Part shown: one piece after another, positions 26,685 to 38,096 of the stretch
Layout: each line of letters opens with the position of its first letter
Numbering within the stretch: the stretch's first letter is position 1
NCBI GenBank assembly: GCA_021786385.1
Contig: JAJYNJ010000007.1
Coordinates: 1-60,530, forward strand
Length of the DNA: 60,530 bases
Direction: 5' to 3'
Source of the DNA: Chloroflexota bacterium
Lineage (GTDB): Bacteria; Chloroflexota; Limnocylindria; Limnocylindrales; CSP1-4
Made by a program: the position numbers and the translations under genes
The notes under the pieces: model-generated
Databases searched by the model: none
Told to the model about the DNA's origin: nothing
What the model saw: only the letters and a program-made list of their open reading frames with translations

Positions 26685-26987
26685 ATGCAGAGCGTCCAGA
26701 TCGTCGTGCGCAACAAGAGCGGCCTCCACGCGCGACCGGCCGCGCTCTTCGTCCAGACCGCGGCCCGCTTCGCGTCACGGGTGACCCTGGAGAACCTCTC
26801 CCGCAACGGGCACCCCGTCGACGCGAAGTCGATCCTGATGGTCCTGACCACCGGGGTGGCCCAGGGACATCGCATCCGGATCGCCGCCGACGGTCCCGAC
26901 GAGGAGGCGGCCATCGTGGAGCTCGAATCGGCCGTCTCCTCCGGATTGGGCGAGCCGGTCGAGGAGACGCCGAGCGCGGCATCGTAG
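26685..26987 (+). CDS. ptsH: phosphocarrier protein HPr
   Basis: Small cytoplasmic phosphoryl carrier of 100 residues that takes phosphate from enzyme I and passes it to EIIA domains. The active His15 sits in NKSGLHARPAALFV; DAKSILMVLTTGVAQG contains the region where Ser46 is found in regulated HPr. A charged tail of about 12 residues extends past the usual end. No sugar permease is in the window, so the likely clients are the two DhaM EIIA proteins at 30.7 and 39.3 kb. Convergent with ptsI across a small tandem repeat. Confidence 0.95.
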   Translation: MQSVQIVVRNKSGLHARPAALFVQTAARFASRVTLENLSRNGHPVDAKSILMVLTTGVAQGHRIRIAADGPDEEAAIVELESAVSSGLGEPVEETPSAAS

Positions 26988-27006: not shown

Positions 27007-27074
27007 TTACCCGTCGGCCGACGTCACCCGTCGGCCGACCTCACCCGGCGGCCGACCTCACCCGGCGGCCGCGG
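27007..27074. repeat. 17-bp tandem repeat, 4 copies, covering ptsI stop
   Basis: Units such as TCACCCGTCGGCCGACC and TCACCCGGCGGCCGACC repeat four times between the 3' ends of ptsH and ptsI. The last unit contains the ptsI stop codon (27058-27060). Confidence 0.8.
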
Positions 27075-28782
27075 CTCCCGGGATCGCGCGGAAACGGGCG
27101 CGCACGTGCGCCGCCGACGCGTCGTCGAGCGCCGCCAGCGCCGCTGCCCGGAGCGTCGCCTCGTCGGTGCCACGGATCGCCCGCCGCACCGGGGCGAGGC
27201 TGCTCGCCGCCATGCTCAGCTTGCGGATGCCGAGCCCGACGAGGGCGAGTGCGGCGACCGGGTCGCCGGCCATCTCCCCGCAGACCGACAGCTCGATGCC
27301 AGCCCGTTCGGCGCGCTCGACCGCCTCCCGCACCAGCCGCAGCAGCGCCGGATGGAGCGAGTCCTGGTAGCGCGCCAGCGCCGGGTTCCCGCGGTCAACC
27401 GCCAGCGTGTACTGCAAGAGATCGTTGGTGCCGAGACTCGCAAAGGCGAGCTGCGAAAAGTACGTATGGCCGACCAGGATCGCGCCCGGGATCTCCAGCA
27501 TCACCCCGAGTTCGATCGGCGCGAACGGCTCACCCCGCGCCTCCAGCTCCGCACGCGCCTGCGCGGCGAGCGAGAGGAGCGTCGCCGCGTCGCCCGCGTC
27601 CGCGACCATCGGGGCCATCACCTTGACCGGGCCGGCCAACGCAGCACGCATCGCCGCGCGAAGCTGCCGTAGGAAGATGCCCGGCTGGGTCGCCGCGAGC
27701 CGCAGCGCGCGCACACCCAGGAACGGGTTCGCCTCGGGGGCCAGCGGCAGATACGGGATCGGCTTGTCGCCGCCGATGTCGAGCAGCCGGATCGTCACCG
27801 CATGCGGGGCGAACGCCTCGACCGCGGCCCGGTAGGCCGCGACCTGTTCGTCCTCGGTCGGCTCCGTGAGCCGTTCGAGGAAGAGGAACTCCGTCCGGAA
27901 GAGCCCAACCCCGTGCGCCCCGAGCTCGACCGCGCGCGGTGCCTCCTCCGGCGTGCCGATGTTGGCCAGCAGCGTCACCGCGACCCCGTCGCGCGTCACG
28001 GCGGGCAGGGAGGCCTCGTCGCGGGCCTCGGCATCTGCCTGGCGGGCCTGCACGGCGCGCCGCTCGATCTCGGCGCTGGCCACGGCGTCCGGGTCGATGA
28101 AGACCTCCCCGCTGCTGCCGTCGATGGCGATCTCGCCGGGGGCCAGGGCAGCGAGGAGTCCGGCCACGCCCACGACGGCGGGGATCCCGTAGGCGCGGGC
28201 CAGGATCGCGGCATGCGCGGTCGCCGACCCCGACTCCAGCGCGAACCCGAGCAGCCGCTCCCGCGGCAGCGTCGCGGTCACCGAGGGCGGCAGGTCCTCC
28301 GCGACCACGATGCTCGAGGCGTCGAGGTGCGGCGGGCCGGCGTCGGGGACGCCCGCGGCGCGGCGGGCGATCCGCAGCGCCACGTCGCGCACGTCGGCGG
28401 CTCGGGCCGAGAGCAGCTCGTCGCCCAGCCCACGCAGCTGGTCGGCCAACTCCCGACCGGCCTCGAGGACCGCACCGACGGCGTCGAGGTGGCGCTCCTC
28501 GATGGCCTGCTCGGCGAGCGACGCCAACGCCGGGTCGCGGGCCATCTGCGCCTGCGCGCCAAAGATCGCGCCCTCGTCGGGATGCCCATCGGCGGTCACG
28601 CGCTCCGCGATGGCCTCGAGTTCGGTCGCGGCGAGCGCGGCCGCGGCGGCGAGACGGGCCCGCTCGGTCTCGACCTCCGCCGGCCCGATCGTGCGGGCCT
28701 CGGGTTCGCGGATCGGTTCGATTCGGACCCAGGGTCCCCTGGCCACGCCGCCCGAGGCCGGCGTACCGGACAAGACGCGCAT
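27058..28782 (-). CDS. ptsI: phosphoenolpyruvate--protein phosphotransferase (enzyme I)
   Basis: Autophosphorylates with PEP and transfers phosphate to HPr. The 574-residue product has the active His190 in GSATAHAAILARAYGIPAVV, the PEP/Mg-binding barrel (GLFRTEFLFLERLTEPTEDE; RLLDIGGDKPIPYLPLAPEA; MLEIPGAILVGHTYFSQLAF; LGTNDLLQYTLAVDRGNPAL) and the catalytic Cys in ELSVCGEMAGDP. The usual GGxTSH reads GSATAH, a mild change. The start at 28782 is chosen over 28809 because a CAGAAT box lies 6 nt upstream and MRVLSGTPAS begins the family fold. Together with HPr it serves the DHA kinase genes. Confidence 0.95.
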   Translation of the reverse strand: MRVLSGTPASGGVARGPWVRIEPIREPEARTIGPAEVETERARLAAAAALAATELEAIAERVTADGHPDEGAIFGAQAQMARDPALASLAEQAIEERHLDAVGAVLEAGRELADQLRGLGDELLSARAADVRDVALRIARRAAGVPDAGPPHLDASSIVVAEDLPPSVTATLPRERLLGFALESGSATAHAAILARAYGIPAVVGVAGLLAALAPGEIAIDGSSGEVFIDPDAVASAEIERRAVQARQADAEARDEASLPAVTRDGVAVTLLANIGTPEEAPRAVELGAHGVGLFRTEFLFLERLTEPTEDEQVAAYRAAVEAFAPHAVTIRLLDIGGDKPIPYLPLAPEANPFLGVRALRLAATQPGIFLRQLRAAMRAALAGPVKVMAPMVADAGDAATLLSLAAQARAELEARGEPFAPIELGVMLEIPGAILVGHTYFSQLAFASLGTNDLLQYTLAVDRGNPALARYQDSLHPALLRLVREAVERAERAGIELSVCGEMAGDPVAALALVGLGIRKLSMAASSLAPVRRAIRGTDEATLRAAALAALDDASAAHVRARFRAIPGAAAAG

Positions 28783-28788
28783 GGACGC

Positions 28789-28794
28789 ATTCTG
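28789..28794 (-). promoter_or_regulatory. -10-like box of ptsI
   Basis: On the minus strand CAGAAT lies 6 nt before the ATG at 28782. Weaker than the TANNNT boxes elsewhere in the window. Confidence 0.3.
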
Positions 28795-28884
28795 CCCCAT
28801 CGCCCGCATGCCGTGGGCGCCGCAACGGCACTGCGCGGCGCCGGAAGCTCGTGGCCGCCGGACTGGCGGCTCCCGATGGGCGCC

Positions 28885-30671: not shown

Positions 30672-31142
30672 TCAGTCCGCGACGTGCTTGTCGTAGGAGG
30701 CCGCCGCCTCGGCGGTCGCGAGGACCGCCTCGAGGCTGTCGCCGACACTCGCCTGGACCGCGGCGAACACCGCACCCTCGACCAGCGGGCCCCCACTGAT
30801 GCGCACACGCGCCGCCAGCGCCGGATCGAGCAGGCTCTCCAGGGCGAAGCGCGCCGCGTGTACCGCGCCGTTGAAGTCGACCACCACCACCACGCCGGCC
30901 CCCGCGTCGGCCTCCTCGATCGCCGCCGCGATGCGCGTCGGATCCTCGCCGAGCGAGCCATCGGCGGCGCCCCCCGCCGCGACGACACGGACGTCGGGCG
31001 CCTGCTCGCGCGCCATCTGCAGCGCCATCTCGACGATCCCCTCCGCCACGCGCGCCGAGTGTGACGCCACGACCACCCCGACGAGCGGCCGGCGCTCCGC
31101 GCTCGCCCCGCCACTTGCCGCCCCGCCTGCGATGCTGCTCAC
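30672..31142 (-). CDS. dhaM: DHA kinase phosphotransferase subunit DhaM (EIIA domain)
   Basis: A 156-residue protein of the PTS EIIA-mannose fold that receives phosphate from HPr and gives it to DhaL-bound ADP for dihydroxyacetone phosphorylation. Phospho-His28 lies in VVVASHSARVAEGIVEMALQ; GGAADGSLGEDPTRIAAAIE and VVVVVDFNGAVHAARFALE follow as in DhaM, and SGGPLVEGAVFAAVQASVGD is the family block. It lacks the HPr-like and EI-like domains of E. coli DhaM, consistent with separate HPr and EI. GTG start overlapping the sdhD stop. Confidence 0.88.
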   Translation of the reverse strand: MSSIAGGAASGGASAERRPLVGVVVASHSARVAEGIVEMALQMAREQAPDVRVVAAGGAADGSLGEDPTRIAAAIEEADAGAGVVVVVDFNGAVHAARFALESLLDPALAARVRISGGPLVEGAVFAAVQASVGDSLEAVLATAEAAASYDKHVAD

Positions 31143-31561
31143 GGGTGCGTCACCAAGATGGCCAGGAGTGTCAGGCCGTAGAGGACCGTCACGACCCAGA
31201 CGCCCAGGAGGACGCGCGTCACGATCCGTTCGGCGCGCACGCTCAGCCCGAAGTCGAAGATGACGGCTCGCAGCCCGAGCAGCCCGTGCCAGCTGACCAC
31301 GACCAAGAAGAGCGTCTCGAGCGGCAAGATGACGGGGTTCGTGATGTAGGCGATCACCTCCTGGTAATCGCGCAGCCCACCCTTGACCACGAAGTGGTTG
31401 GCGATCATGTGGAGCGTCACGAGGACCAACACCAGCGCCCCGGTGACGGCCTGCCACCCCCAGCCCACGCCGGGCAGCGTGTCCCGCTCCTCGGGCGCCC
31501 ACCGCACGGGCCGTTCCCCGGGCGCCGACAGAGCCCCAGATTCGTCCGCTCGTCCGGCCAT
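31139..31561 (-). CDS. sdhD: succinate dehydrogenase-type membrane anchor (SdhD-like)
   Basis: About 140 residues with three membrane spans. LVTLHMIANHFVVKGG in the first span and SWHGLLGLRAVIFDFG in the second provide His residues that are likely heme b ligands, as in SdhC/SdhD anchors. The start overlaps the sdhC stop (TGATG), and the gene's own stop overlaps the dhaM start. There is no sdhA in the window; the catalytic partner encoded here is GlpA, so the anchor may deliver electrons from glycerol-3-phosphate to the quinone pool. Confidence 0.85.
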   Translation of the reverse strand: MAGRADESGALSAPGERPVRWAPEERDTLPGVGWGWQAVTGALVLVLVTLHMIANHFVVKGGLRDYQEVIAYITNPVILPLETLFLVVVSWHGLLGLRAVIFDFGLSVRAERIVTRVLLGVWVVTVLYGLTLLAILVTHP

Positions 31562-31989
31562 CACTTCGCCCCCACGTCACTCAGGAACCGCAACGCGCCG
31601 ATCAGCAGCACGATCACGCCGACCGTGCCGAACGCCAAGAGGAGCGCCTTCTGGCGGCTGACGACCAACCCGAACTCCACGAGGGTCAGGCGGATGCCGT
31701 TCAGCCCATGGATCAGCAACCCTGCAAGGAGCACGACATCTAGGACCAGGAAGATCGGGTTCAGGAACCAGTTCAGCAAGGCGTTCCATGAGCTCGGGCC
31801 AGCCGCGAGCTGCGAGAGCACGATCAGGTGCAGGTACAGGTAGAAGAGGACGCCCAGCCCGGTGACGCGGTTGAGGATGAAGGCCCAGCCACCCAGGCGG
31901 CGCCCACGGACGTCGAGCCAGCCGAGGACGCCACGGCGGCGGCCACGAGGAGGGGCCTGCCGCGCGGGGGTGACGGCGCGCTCGCTCAT
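31561..31989 (-). CDS. sdhC: succinate dehydrogenase-type cytochrome b subunit (SdhC-like)
   Basis: A 142-residue protein with three hydrophobic spans after a basic N-terminus. FILNRVTGLGVLFYLYLHLI carries the conserved SGxxL-like start and a heme-binding His, and LLIHGLNGIRLTLVEFG is the HGxxGxR block of succinate dehydrogenase cytochrome b556. With SdhD it would form a quinone-reactive, heme-containing anchor. It starts 10 bp after the SdhB stop. Confidence 0.88.
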   Translation of the reverse strand: MSERAVTPARQAPPRGRRRGVLGWLDVRGRRLGGWAFILNRVTGLGVLFYLYLHLIVLSQLAAGPSSWNALLNWFLNPIFLVLDVVLLAGLLIHGLNGIRLTLVEFGLVVSRQKALLLAFGTVGVIVLLIGALRFLSDVGAK

Positions 31990-31999
31990 TGGAGCACCC

Positions 32000-32734
32000 T
32001 CATCGCCCGACCTCCGCCCGCGGCGCGAAGAGGCGCCGCAGCCGACCTCCGATCAGCGCGCGGCGCAGCTGCATGATGTGCCCGGCCGGATCCACGTTCG
32101 AGGGGCACGCTTCTGTGCATTCGAACGCGGCATGGCAGCGCCACACGCCATGCGGGTCGTCTGCCAGGCTGAGCACGAACGGCAGATCGCGGCCACGCGG
32201 CTCCTCACGCACCCGGTCGGCCGCGGCGAGCGCCGCCGGACCCAGGTAGTCGGGATCGGTGCCCGCGATGGGGCAGACCGAGACGCAGATGCCGCACTCG
32301 ATGCAGTCCTCGTATCGCAGGGCCCGCTCCACGCCCGGCGCACGCTGTGCCCCGGGCACGAGCTCGCTCTCGCGGACCAGTGGACGGTCGATTGCGTTGT
32401 ACCGCGCGAAGAAGGGCGCCATCTCCACGACCAGGTCGCTGACGAGCGGCGCGTTCTCCAACGGTTCGACCACCACCTCGGCGGTGCCGAGCTCGCGGAC
32501 ATTCGTCACGCACGCCAGCACCTCCCGGCCGTTCACCTTCATCGCGCAGGTCCCGCACGACGCGTGGAAGCACGAGTGGCGGAGCGTGAGGCTGGGGTCC
32601 TGGGTGCGCCGGATGGCCGTCAACGCGTCGAGCACCGTGGTGCGCGGCTCGGTCTCGACCTGGAACGTGTCTTGGTGGGGTGCCGCGTCGCCCTGCTTGT
32701 AGCGGTGGACGCGGAACGTGACGGTCTCGCCCAT
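32000..32734 (-). CDS. sdhB: SdhB/FrdB-type iron-sulfur subunit
   Basis: A 244-residue electron-transfer subunit. Cys55, 60, 63 and 75 (HSCFHASCGTC...C) bind a plant-type [2Fe-2S] cluster; Cys144, 147, 150 and 154 (CIECGICVSVCP), with Cys200, 206 and 210 (CHAAFECTEACP), ligate the [4Fe-4S] and [3Fe-4S] clusters. The set of ligands is complete for a succinate dehydrogenase iron-sulfur protein. The upstream gene, 3 bp away, is a GlpA-type flavoprotein rather than SdhA, so this subunit probably takes electrons from GlpA and passes them to SdhC/D. Confidence 0.95.
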   Translation of the reverse strand: MGETVTFRVHRYKQGDAAPHQDTFQVETEPRTTVLDALTAIRRTQDPSLTLRHSCFHASCGTCAMKVNGREVLACVTNVRELGTAEVVVEPLENAPLVSDLVVEMAPFFARYNAIDRPLVRESELVPGAQRAPGVERALRYEDCIECGICVSVCPIAGTDPDYLGPAALAAADRVREEPRGRDLPFVLSLADDPHGVWRCHAAFECTEACPSNVDPAGHIMQLRRALIGGRLRRLFAPRAEVGR

Positions 32735-32737
32735 CGG

Positions 32738-33922
32738 CTACGCGGTGTAGTAGGCCGTGTGTGGCAGCAGCACGGTGTCGCGCGTCCGGCAGGGCGCATC
32801 GACCCCCAGCTTGCGGCAGACGACGTCCGCCGTCGTCTCCGCCATCGCCCGCGCCGTCGTCCCCTTGCCGCCGGAAATGGTGACGAAGCCCTCCACGCCG
32901 TCGCGCTCCATGTGGTCGAAGCACTTGAACGTGCGGCTCAGCTCCCGTCCGGTCGCCGCGCCGCGCGATCCGATCAGCGGGCGGGCCGCCGACCACGCCT
33001 GGCGGAACGGCGCCGAGCGGACCGCCGGGATCAGCTTGGCCCCTTCTTCGTACATCTTCTGCACGTGGTCCTCCGGGACGCCCAGGTCGTCCGGGTCGTC
33101 GACGATCCACGAGCTCGTGCCGACGATCGAGAGCGCGCGTTGCGGCACGACGATGTCACCGTCGCCGGATTTGTGCATGCGGTTGATGACCATGTTGCAG
33201 AAGCGGCCACGCAGCGCGAGCAAGACGCCCGGCGAGGGCTGGATCGGGACGTCCACCCCGGCCATCGCGGCCACCTTCTCGGCCCACGGCCCGCTGGCGT
33301 TCACGACGATATCCGCACTGATCTCGAAATCGCGTTCCGTGCGATGGTCCCGCCCCCGCACGCCGGTCACGCACTTGTCATGCACGATCAGGCTCGTCAC
33401 CTCGCAGAACGGCTGGATCAGCGCGCCGTGTGCCTTGGCGGTGGCGAACCAGCGCAACGGCAGGCGCATCGCATCGAACGTCGCGTCCGGGACCTGGATG
33501 GCGCCCTTCAGCGCGGGGTTCAGGTTCGGTTCGAGGCGCAGCGCCTCGGCCGCCGACAGCCAGCGGGCGGGGATCCCGGTCTCGCCGCAGGCCGCGAAGA
33601 GTTTCTCGCCGTAGGCCATGTCCTCCTCGTCGAGACCGACGAAGAGCCCGTCGTTCTCCTCGAACGAGCCGGGCGCCACACGACGCAGCAGCTGGTTCTC
33701 CTGGATGCATTCGGCCGCGGACTCGGGGTCGTTCACAGCATAGCGGGCGCCGCTGTGGAGCAGGCCATGGTGCCGGCCCGTGGTCCCGGACGTGATCTCG
33801 CCGCGTTCGACGAGCGTGACCCGGAGCCCCCGGAGGGCCAGATCGAGGGCCAGCGCCCCGCCCGTGCCGCCCCCGCCGACGATGACGACGTGCGGCGCGG
33901 GCGAGCGATGGACGACGGTCAT
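32738..33922 (-). CDS. glpA: glycerol-3-phosphate dehydrogenase, GlpA-type FAD subunit
   Basis: FAD-dependent oxidoreductase of 394 residues that would oxidise glycerol-3-phosphate to DHAP. The dinucleotide-binding motif VVIVGGGGTGGALALDLALR is at residues 12-31, then GEITSGTTGRHHGLLHSGAR (the GlpA/GlpD substrate region), ADIVVNASGPWAEKVAAMAG and TISGGKGTTARAMAETTADV. It is closer to anaerobic GlpA than to GlpD, but lacks the C-terminal BFD-type [2Fe-2S] domain of E. coli GlpA (about 540 residues). It lies 3 bp upstream of sdhB, strong evidence for a GlpA-SdhBCD complex; GlpB and GlpC are absent. Confidence 0.9.
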   Translation of the reverse strand: MTVVHRSPAPHVVIVGGGGTGGALALDLALRGLRVTLVERGEITSGTTGRHHGLLHSGARYAVNDPESAAECIQENQLLRRVAPGSFEENDGLFVGLDEEDMAYGEKLFAACGETGIPARWLSAAEALRLEPNLNPALKGAIQVPDATFDAMRLPLRWFATAKAHGALIQPFCEVTSLIVHDKCVTGVRGRDHRTERDFEISADIVVNASGPWAEKVAAMAGVDVPIQPSPGVLLALRGRFCNMVINRMHKSGDGDIVVPQRALSIVGTSSWIVDDPDDLGVPEDHVQKMYEEGAKLIPAVRSAPFRQAWSAARPLIGSRGAATGRELSRTFKCFDHMERDGVEGFVTISGGKGTTARAMAETTADVVCRKLGVDAPCRTRDTVLLPHTAYYTA

Positions 33923-33971: not shown

Positions 33972-35474
33972 TCAGTGGTTCTCGACCCAGTCGAAGGTCC
34001 GCGTCACGGCCTTCTTCCAGAACTTGTACTCCTTCTCGCGGGTGGCCGCATCGAGCTGCGGGTGCCACTCCTTGTCCTTGGCCCAGTTGGCGCGCAGATC
34101 CTCGACCGCCTTCCAGAAGCCGACCGCCAGGCCGGCTGCGTAGGCAGCGCCGAGCGCCGTCGTCTCGGCCACCTTCGGGCGGATGACCGGGACGGCAAGG
34201 ACGTCGGACTGGAACTGCATCAGCAGCTCGTTGTAGACCATGCCGCCGTCGACCTTGAGGGCCGTCAGCGCGACGCCGGAGTCGGCGTTCATCGCGTCGA
34301 GCACCTCACGGGTCTGCCAAGCCGTCGCCTCGAGGACGGCACGCGCGATGTGACCCTTGTTCACGTAGCGGGTGAGGCCGGCGATGACGCCGCGGGCGTC
34401 GTTCTTCCAGTACGGCGCGAACAGCCCGGAGAACGCCGGGACGAAGTAGACGCCGCCGTTGTCGTCGACGGTGCGGGCCAGATCCTCGATCTCCGGTGAG
34501 GTCTTGATCATGCCCAGGTTGTCGCGCAGCCACTGCACGAGCGCACCAGTGATCGCGATCGAGCCCTCGAGCGCGTAGACCGCGGGCTGGTCGCCGATCT
34601 TGTAGCCGAGCGTGGTGAGCAGGCCGCTCTTGGACGGCACCGGCTTGGTGCCGGTGTTGAGGAGCATGAAGCAGCCCGTGCCGTACGTGTTCTTCGCCTC
34701 GCCGGCGGAGAAGCACGTCTGGCCGAAGAGCGCCGCCTGCTGGTCGCCGAGGTCGCCGGCGACCGGGACGCCGGCGAGGTCGCCGGTGGCCTTGCCGTAG
34801 ACCTCGCTGGAGGCCTTGATGGCCGGCAGCATCGCGCGCGGGATGCCCATCAGCTTCAGGATCTCGGGATCCCAGTCGAGGGTCGCGAGGTTCATCAGCA
34901 TGGTGCGGCTGGCGTTCGTGACATCCGTCACGTGGACGCCGCCCGACGGGCCGCCGGTCAGGTTCCAGATGCACCAGGTGTCGATGTTGCCGAAGAGCAA
35001 TTCCCCGGCCTCGGCCTTGGCACGCGCACCCTCGACGTTGTCGAGGATCCACTTGATCTTCGGACCGGAGAAGTAGGTCGCCAGCGGCAGGCCGACCTTG
35101 GGCCGGAGCCGATCCTGGCCACCGTCCTTCGCCAGCTCGTTGCAGATGTCGGCCGTCCGGGTGTCCTGCCAGACGATCGCGTTGTGGATCGGCTTGCCCG
35201 TGCGGCGATCCCAGACCACCGTGGTCTCGCGCTGGTTGGTGACGCCCACGGCGGCCAGATCGGCCGCGCTGACGCCGGCCTTGGCCAGGGCACCGCGGAT
35301 GACCTCGACGCTGCGGTTCCAGATCTCGAGCGGATCGTGCTCCACCCAGCCGGGCTTCGGGTAGATCTGCTCGTGTTCCTTCTGATCGATCGCGACGACG
35401 GCGCCGGCGTGATCGAAGATCATGAAGCGGGTGCTGGTCGTGCCCTGATCGAGGGCGCCGACGTATCTCGCCAT
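33972..35474 (-). CDS. glpK: glycerol kinase
   Basis: FGGY-family kinase phosphorylating glycerol to sn-glycerol-3-phosphate for GlpA or phospholipid synthesis. The 500-residue product begins [17 protein letters not shown] (ATP phosphate loop), has [20 protein letters not shown] and [17 protein letters not shown] for glycerol binding, [13 protein letters not shown], and the FGGY signatures [14 protein letters not shown] and [20 protein letters not shown]. It lies between dhaL and glpA in one operon, with 43- and 49-bp gaps. Confidence 0.97.
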
Positions 35475-35517: not shown

Positions 35518-36183
35518 CTAGTTGGCCGTTCCTCCGGCCGCACCCGACCAGGCGTCGGCGGCGGCCTTCAGCAGCAGGTACGAAGAGGTCGCGCCCGGGT
35601 CCTGGTGCCCGGCGCTTCGCTCTCCGAGGTAGCTCGCCCGACCTTTGCGGGCGACGAGCGGGATGGTCGCGAGCATCCCCTGCTCGGCCGCAGCGACCGC
35701 ACGGGCCAATGCGTCCTGCAGGGAGGCCCCCGATGCGGCGGCCTCCCGCAGGGCGTCCCGGGCCGGCAGCAGCGTGTCGAGCATGGTCTTGTCGCCCGGC
35801 TCCGCCTTGCCGATCCGCTGAACCCCAGCGACTCCGGCGTCGAGCGCCGCGATGAGATCGTCGAGGCCGATGGCCTCGCGGCCGGCCGTGGCGGTGCCGA
35901 GCTGCAGAAAGAACGTGCCGTAGAGCGGGCCGCTCGCCCCGCCGACCGTCGAGACCAGCGTCATCCCCACCGTCTTGAACGCCGCGCCGATGTCGCGGTT
36001 GGGCAGGCCCGGGAGTTTCCCGATCACGGCCTGGAAGCCCCGGTCCATGTTGATGCCGTGGTCGGCATCGCCGATCGCGGAGTCGAGCTCGGTGAGGTAC
36101 TCCTTCTGGTCCCTGACGGATGCGGCGAACGTGTTGATCCAAGCGATCACGTCGTCATACGTGATCGGCGTCGACCCGCTCAT
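35518..36183 (-). CDS. dhaL: dihydroxyacetone kinase ADP-binding subunit DhaL
   Basis: Holds ADP that is rephosphorylated by DhaM and transfers the phosphate to dihydroxyacetone bound by DhaK. The 221-residue product has the Mg/ADP motif SAIGDADHGINMDRGF, GGASGPLYGTFF, PGDKTMLDTLLPA and RKGRASYLGERSAGHQDPGA, all intact. It is 52 bp after dhaK and pairs with it. Two other DhaL proteins are encoded at 38.5 and 39.8 kb. Confidence 0.95.
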   Translation of the reverse strand: MSGSTPITYDDVIAWINTFAASVRDQKEYLTELDSAIGDADHGINMDRGFQAVIGKLPGLPNRDIGAAFKTVGMTLVSTVGGASGPLYGTFFLQLGTATAGREAIGLDDLIAALDAGVAGVQRIGKAEPGDKTMLDTLLPARDALREAAASGASLQDALARAVAAAEQGMLATIPLVARKGRASYLGERSAGHQDPGATSSYLLLKAAADAWSGAAGGTAN

Positions 36184-36235: not shown

Positions 36236-37234
<999 letters not shown>

Positions 37235-37346: not shown

Positions 37347-38096
37347 TCAGTGCGCGATCGCCTTCAGGATGTAGTCAGTGAACACCCACTGGTACACCAC
37401 GGCGGCGAGGGCGCCGCCGATGAGCGGGCCGACCACCGGTACCCACGAGTAGGCCCAGTCCGAATCACGCTTGCCCGGGATGGGCAGGATGAAGTGGGCG
37501 ATGCGCGGACCGAGGTCGCGGGCGGGGTTGATGGCGTACCCGGTCGTACCGCCGAGCGAGAGGCCGATCACCCAGACCAACAGTGCGACGGGCAGCGCGC
37601 CCAATGACGCCAGTCCAGAGCCACTGCCGTTGTGGCCGAACGAGAAGATCACGAACAGCAGCACGAAGGTGCCGATGATCTCCGAGATCAGGTTCAGGGG
37701 GTAGTTGCGGATGTTCGGGGCGGTGCTGAAGACCGCCAGCTTGAGGTTGGCGTCCTCAGTGGCCTTGAAGTGATCCCAGTAATGGAGCGCCACCAGGCAG
37801 GCGCCGATGAACGCGCCGATCATCTGCCCGAGCCAGTAGCCGGGCACGGCGCTCCACGGAATGCCACCGTTGATCGCGACCGCGAGCGTCACCGCGGGGT
37901 TGATATGGGCACCGCTGATCGGTCCGGCGACGACGACGCCGGCGAAGACGGCCAAGGCCCATGCCGTGGTGATCACGATCCAGCCGGAGTTCTGGGCCTT
38001 GGACTTGGTGAGCAGGACTGCGGCGACCACGCCGTCGCCGAGGAGGATCAGCATCCCTGTGCCAAAGATCTCGGCGAGGAACTTCTCAGCTGTCAT
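37347..38096 (-). CDS. glpF: glycerol uptake facilitator (aquaglyceroporin)
   Basis: MIP-family channel for glycerol and other small polyols across the cytoplasmic membrane. The 249-residue product has six spans and both half-helix motifs: SGAHINPAVTLAVAING (first NPA) and GYAINPARDLGPRI (second NPA with the Arg/Asp typical of glycerol channels). First gene of the ten-gene glycerol operon. The start at 38096 follows a GAGGGAG site. Confidence 0.96.
   Translation of the reverse strand: MTAEKFLAEIFGTGMLILLGDGVVAAVLLTKSKAQNSGWIVITTAWALAVFAGVVVAGPISGAHINPAVTLAVAINGGIPWSAVPGYWLGQMIGAFIGACLVALHYWDHFKATEDANLKLAVFSTAPNIRNYPLNLISEIIGTFVLLFVIFSFGHNGSGSGLASLGALPVALLVWVIGLSLGGTTGYAINPARDLGPRIAHFILPIPGKRDSDWAYSWVPVVGPLIGGALAAVVYQWVFTDYILKAIAH

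Follow-up and report, generated by a model that had tools for sequence, protein, structure and literature searches.

A glycerol operon that carries genes for three succinate dehydrogenase subunits but no sdhA raises the question of which enzyme those subunits serve. In the 60,530-nucleotide stretch of DNA analysed here (the window), first-pass annotation had read glpA, sdhB, sdhC and sdhD as one glycerol-3-phosphate (G3P) dehydrogenase that passes electrons from flavin through iron-sulfur clusters and heme b to quinone, and had taken such an enzyme to be undescribed in standard models.

The glycerol operon and its subunits

The operon lies on the minus strand in the order glpF-dhaK-dhaL-glpK-glpA-sdhB-sdhC-sdhD-dhaM. 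It opens with a gene for a GlpF-like aquaglyceroporin of the MIP family (37347..38096; PF00230, E 1.7e-47), followed by dhaK (Dak1, 36236..37234; PF02733, E 7.9e-136), dhaL (Dak2, 35518..36183; PF02734, E 1.3e-57) and the glycerol kinase gene glpK (33972..35474; TIGR01311, 753 bits, above the cut-off), which is the upstream neighbour of glpA (32738..33922). From glpA to dhaM the genes are tightly packed in the sequence, with either 3 or 10 nt between neighbours or an overlap of 1–4 nt. The TAG stop codon of glpA ends at 32738 and the ATG of sdhB (32000..32734) starts at 32734, with 3 bp separating the two genes, as first-pass annotation had it. The gap between sdhB and sdhC (31561..31989) is 10 nt, and the short overlaps are those of sdhC with sdhD (31139..31564) and of sdhD with the gene for a DhaM-like EIIA-man protein (30672..31142; PF03610, E 6.5e-20), which has a GTG start and a 4-nt overlap with the sdhD stop codon. 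The listed sdhD open reading frame starts with GTG at 31564, and an alternative ATG at 31561 overlaps the stop codon of sdhC. The closest named relatives are Chloroflexi MAGs, with 89% GlpA identity.

Beyond dhaM, the window continues downstream with an apbA-like gene, plsY and a PTS enzyme I gene (27058-28809, minus strand). The sole HPr match of the genome is also in the window (26694-26939, plus strand), and both PTS genes lie near the dhaKLM-containing glycerol operon. Dihydroxyacetone kinase may be the only client of this PTS.

GlpA is predicted to be the FAD-dependent G3P dehydrogenase subunit. The protein is 394 aa long and matches TIGR03377 (E 2.7e-136, 455 bits), NF008313 (401 bits) and PF01266 (E 5e-52), which establishes homology to the core of GlpABC-type GlpA. 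The TIGR03377 match covers only positions 1-378 of 530, and the protein runs only 6-9 aa beyond its alignment to the GlpA models. The C-terminal extension that holds the BFD domain is therefore absent and only the DAO fold is present; a profile search of the window GlpA for the BFD domain (Fer2_BFD, PF04324) found no match, in agreement with the earlier claim that this domain is missing.

SdhB (244 aa; TIGR00384, E 5.1e-58; PF13085, E 6.8e-30) contains exactly 11 cysteines (55, 60, 63, 75, 144, 147, 150, 154, 200, 206 and 210), and their spacing is the SdhB/FrdB pattern of complex II, with three motifs for the ligands of the [2Fe-2S], [4Fe-4S] and [3Fe-4S] clusters. All 11 columns are cysteine in 55/55 aligned GlpA-linked rows, so that the first reading of sdhB as having all cluster ligands stands. 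The sdhC-like gene encodes a membrane cytochrome b subunit with hydrophobic segments (PF01127, E 1.8e-13; TIGR02970, at the cut-off) and the sdhD-like gene encodes a membrane anchor subunit (PF01127, E 1.5e-11), both above the PF01127 cut-off. SdhC H54 and H94 and SdhD H52, H57 and H93 are invariant among GlpA-linked homologues, as counted in the 34–37 GlpA-linked anchors that cover those positions. Retention of these five histidines would be compatible with one or two b hemes. The structural points of the first description, including sdhC and sdhD after sdhB and an operon without sdhA, are all accurate.

Short and long GlpA across bacteria

Within the class, 44/177 genomes had a GlpA match. 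A closer group of these GlpAs was followed by SdhB, and a distant group (~42% identity) was not. In a wider survey, in which GTDB genomes and 400 phylum members were scanned, short GlpA adjoined SdhB in ~60 non-identical loci from Chloroflexota, Actinomycetota, Desulfobacterota and Spirochaetota, the Desulfobacterota including cultured Desulfovibrionaceae. Because the linkage recurs in so many non-identical loci, it cannot be put down to chance. In total, 66 GlpA-linked SdhBs were gathered, a few of them near-copies.

GlpA scores were bimodal across 128 GlpA loci. The median number of residues after the core was 1 aa for short GlpA and 149 for long GlpA, and short GlpA is linked to SdhB whereas long GlpA is not. 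In one long GlpA (L039), PF04324 was found by Pfam within the C-terminal extension. A single branch of the GlpA tree (SH-aLRT 100) parts 71 short from 30 long proteins, with a warning from the tool that long branches meet at this split. At one further locus (L034:262-2337, minus strand), glpA similarity is divided between two frames, a pattern that points to a frameshift or an assembly error within glpA. Among the genomes with short GlpA that were surveyed, GlpB above the cut-off was confined to those that also have long GlpA. The glpK gene adjoins glpA in the window and in many relatives, and the predicted BFD/GlpB/GlpC relay and the predicted SdhB relay are alternatives next to the same glpK neighbour. 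Both arrangements occur within ~6 kb of each other in one genome (G008:C214:7225-12924, locus L188), where short GlpA with SdhB and long GlpA with GlpB are found.

The anchor is more variable than the GlpA-SdhB pair. In the flanks of the loci, sdhC and sdhD were not detected after sdhB at L062, L082 and L083 (Chloroflexota) or at L065-L076 and L078-L081 (Desulfobacterota and Spirochaetota), and at L062 the gene that follows sdhB looks apbA-like. The SdhCD anchor is thus not universal in the clade of GlpA-linked SdhBs, part of which has no sdhCD next door. These loci would suit a reading in which the GlpA-SdhB complex mainly feeds a soluble or other partner, SdhCD is not obligatory and the SdhCD-less loci represent the core unit. 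However, the window has sdhC and sdhD directly after sdhB, as do most Chloroflexota and Actinomycetota loci whose flanks are long enough, with all heme-type histidines kept, and SdhCD-less genomes could obtain SdhCD from elsewhere. We consider an optional SdhCD improbable for the window, and continue with GlpA on an SdhBCD membrane module as the preferred reading. At one SdhCD-less locus, a gene with a 4Fe-4S motif that resembles HdrC-type proteins lies just after the GlpA-SdhB pair (L074:8940-10058, minus strand), and a long GlpA is encoded upstream on the same contig (L074:2692-4326, plus strand).

Two sets of SdhB in one genome

The family resemblance of the operon's sdhBCD to succinate dehydrogenase is clear, and it could supply the genome's single SdhA with a second iron-sulfur and anchor set that came to lie in a glycerol operon by chance, with GlpA acting alone or with another acceptor. 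The five heme-type histidines, which the SdhA-linked SdhC and SdhD of this genome carry too, fit this explanation as well. The host genome (2.68 Mb, 95.8% complete) has one match to the SdhA C-terminal domain (PF02910), on contig C36, and this SdhA belongs to a separate complete sdhC-D-A-B operon. First-pass annotation had suggested looking for just such an operon, and had held that an sdhA with no other sdhBCD would count against its reading; SdhA has its own SdhB, SdhC and SdhD, so this objection falls away. Because this operon is complete and holds the single SdhA, the sdhBCD of the glycerol operon is not needed for succinate oxidation, and we reject the idea that it serves the lone SdhA.

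Only two strong SdhB matches are present in the whole genome. For 18 genomes that encode short GlpA, subtracting strong SdhA matches from strong SdhB matches gives the number of short GlpAs; one genome (G037) has a pair of short GlpAs and a surplus of two SdhBs. Of its two loci (L184 and L185), one set has sdhCD and the other is apparently without it.

The two kinds of SdhB also belong to different lineages. In a tree of 81 SdhBs (a quick tree made without bootstraps), 58 GlpA-linked SdhBs and two unlinked ones form one clade on a branch of 0.64 with SH-aLRT 100, and all SdhA-linked SdhBs from the same genomes fall outside it. The two unlinked members (L179:4799-5446 and L181:5176-5787, both on the minus strand) come from genomes G407 and G481, in which a short glpA has no neighbouring sdhB. 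The spare SdhBs of these genomes fall in the clade, so the prediction for a lone short glpA came out right, and they are likely to be the remotely encoded partners of the lone short GlpA. GlpA and SdhB distances are correlated (r 0.85, compared with a maximum of 0.31 in 1000 permutations), a correlation that can also stem from joint inheritance without contact. Sequence comparison indicates that the GlpA-SdhB pairing is old and strict.

At four actinobacterial loci (L049, L051, L055 and L059), GlpA and SdhB are encoded by one stop-free open reading frame with DAO, Fer2_3 and Fer4_8 domains. L049 is from Cellulomonas sp. 73-145, and has an Ala/Thr-rich linker between the two halves; L059 is from Actinotalea lenta, an isolate. 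A fused product is expected because translation of GlpA meets no stop codon before SdhB, and internal re-initiation could be an extra source of free SdhB at these loci. The AlphaFold2 model of the L049 fusion (97 rows) has a pLDDT of 88.4 and a pTM of 0.90, with a disordered linker (residues 404-443, mostly below 50). So high a pTM, with the linker disordered, implies that the model positions the two halves confidently relative to each other. A read-through of the window GlpA and SdhB was modelled with good local confidence and a pTM of 0.69, a value that gives no separate evidence of docking for the window pair. The linker of this construct is only two residues long and may forbid the docked pose. 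A Foldseek search of the fusion model against the PDB returned G3P dehydrogenases and oxidases (GlpD/GlpO) first, with only the GlpA half matched; among the matches listed, no PDB chain spanned both the GlpA and SdhB modules.

Taken with the recurrence of SdhB beside short GlpA in ~60 loci, the separate clade without a single SdhA-linked SdhB and the natural fusions argue against a second succinate dehydrogenase set, which we regard as very improbable. GlpA with a dedicated SdhB paralogue remains the preferred reading.

We also searched the whole genome for the usual partners and substitutes of GlpA. GlpB had no match above the cut-off. GlpC was likewise not found, and the best of the CCG-domain proteins, which are encoded at three loci, scored 79 bits where the cut-off is 278, consistent with the initial description of both subunits as absent. 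Neither GlpD nor GlpO was found among the other four strong DAO proteins of the genome, which resemble glycine/sarcosine-type oxidases, an aminophosphonate oxidoreductase and two L-2-hydroxyglutarate oxidases. None of these searches uncovered a concealed GlpB/GlpC or GlpD at another site in the genome. The evidence for the absence of GlpB, GlpC, GlpD and GlpO is strong but not absolute, as ~4% of the genome may be missing.

A predicted G3P:quinone oxidoreductase and its relatives

We consider it highly probable that the operon encodes a membrane-bound G3P:quinone oxidoreductase built on a succinate dehydrogenase chassis, with an activity predicted from sequence comparison and structure models. 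GlpF would let glycerol in, GlpK would produce G3P and GlpA would oxidise G3P to DHAP with reduction of its FAD. The electrons would then pass through the [2Fe-2S], [4Fe-4S] and [3Fe-4S] clusters of the dedicated SdhB paralogue, docked on the SdhC/SdhD heme-b anchor of a putative four-subunit assembly, where quinone would be reduced. SdhB would replace both the BFD domain and the GlpB/GlpC relay of canonical GlpABC. We infer the steps past FAD, including the electron path, the number of hemes and the quinone site, from homology to complex II. The placement of GlpA on SdhB on SdhCD, which is the core of the original flavin-to-quinone reading, is backed indirectly by several independent lines: the gene content (SdhA with its own sdhCDAB, and surplus SdhBs), the dedicated SdhB clade, the fusions and the confident modelled fold of one of them, and the conserved ligands and histidines.

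It is scarcely credible that the enzyme has some substrate besides G3P, or that it works backwards, with quinol reducing DHAP to give G3P for lipids, since the downstream plsY-like acyltransferase gene and the other substrates common among DAO-fold enzymes are outweighed by the scores of the GlpA-specific models (400-455 bits, with the next family, a G3P oxidase, at 87 bits) and by the glpK that adjoins glpA in the window as in many relatives. Because the G3P/DHAP couple lies at a more negative potential than menaquinone, oxidation would be favoured, which argues against the reverse direction. G3P oxidation at the expense of quinone is thus retained as the predicted reaction. We give roughly even weight to a broader proposal, that SdhA was swapped for a DAO-type GlpA in a bacterial complex-II-like enzyme which originated once in the sampled bacteria, moved as a unit from phylum to phylum, was fused in Cellulomonadaceae-like actinobacteria and lost SdhCD elsewhere for another acceptor.

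If the preferred reading holds, the SdhBCD module would serve as an interchangeable chassis for electron transfer, able to take a flavoprotein besides SdhA. Automated annotation may label such genes as a second succinate dehydrogenase. The window organism is an uncultured Chloroflexota bacterium, and dozens of relatives appear to share the GlpA-SdhBCD arrangement. With the natural fusions, one of them in cultured Actinotalea lenta, the proposed complex can be tested directly in culturable bacteria.

The suggestion that such an enzyme had not been described was too strong. In the accessible text of a recent study, GlpA-SdhBCD of Thermofilum pendens is listed among several forms of G3P dehydrogenase, as a synteny-based prediction in which SdhBCD is proposed to give membrane anchoring and electron transfer (Commun Biol 2025;8:539, PMC11962113). 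This was the only account of GlpA with SdhBCD found in a literature search mostly outside subscription journals, which likewise found no description of the bacterial clade, the fusions or the SdhCD-less variants. The same text states that bacterial glpA co-occurs consistently with glpB and glpC (PMC11962113), a statement that the loci described here contradict.

Compared with canonical GlpABC of the E. coli type, the window system shares the GlpA core, the glpK neighbour and, by prediction, membrane-linked G3P oxidation, but its GlpA is without the BFD extension and GlpB and GlpC were not detected in the genome. It shares with complex II a three-cluster SdhB and an SdhC/SdhD pair with heme-type histidines, seen in the window in the sequence alone, whereas its flavoprotein is a DAO-family GlpA in place of SdhA and its SdhB falls in a clade of its own. 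GlpA-CoxG of Sulfolobus acidocaldarius, as presented in the accessible text, also combines a short GlpA without BFD cysteines with a membrane partner other than GlpBC, but its anchor is a CoxG-like protein with no iron-sulfur or heme relay (PMC11962113). The Thermofilum type is closest, with the same gene order as in the window (glpA, then sdhB, sdhC and sdhD); it is archaeal, whereas the system described here is bacterial, and neither fusions nor SdhCD-less forms were found described for it in that text. Sequence evidence thus places in at least four bacterial phyla a form that had been predicted only in a few archaea, and the fusions and the variants without SdhCD are new features of the predicted enzyme.
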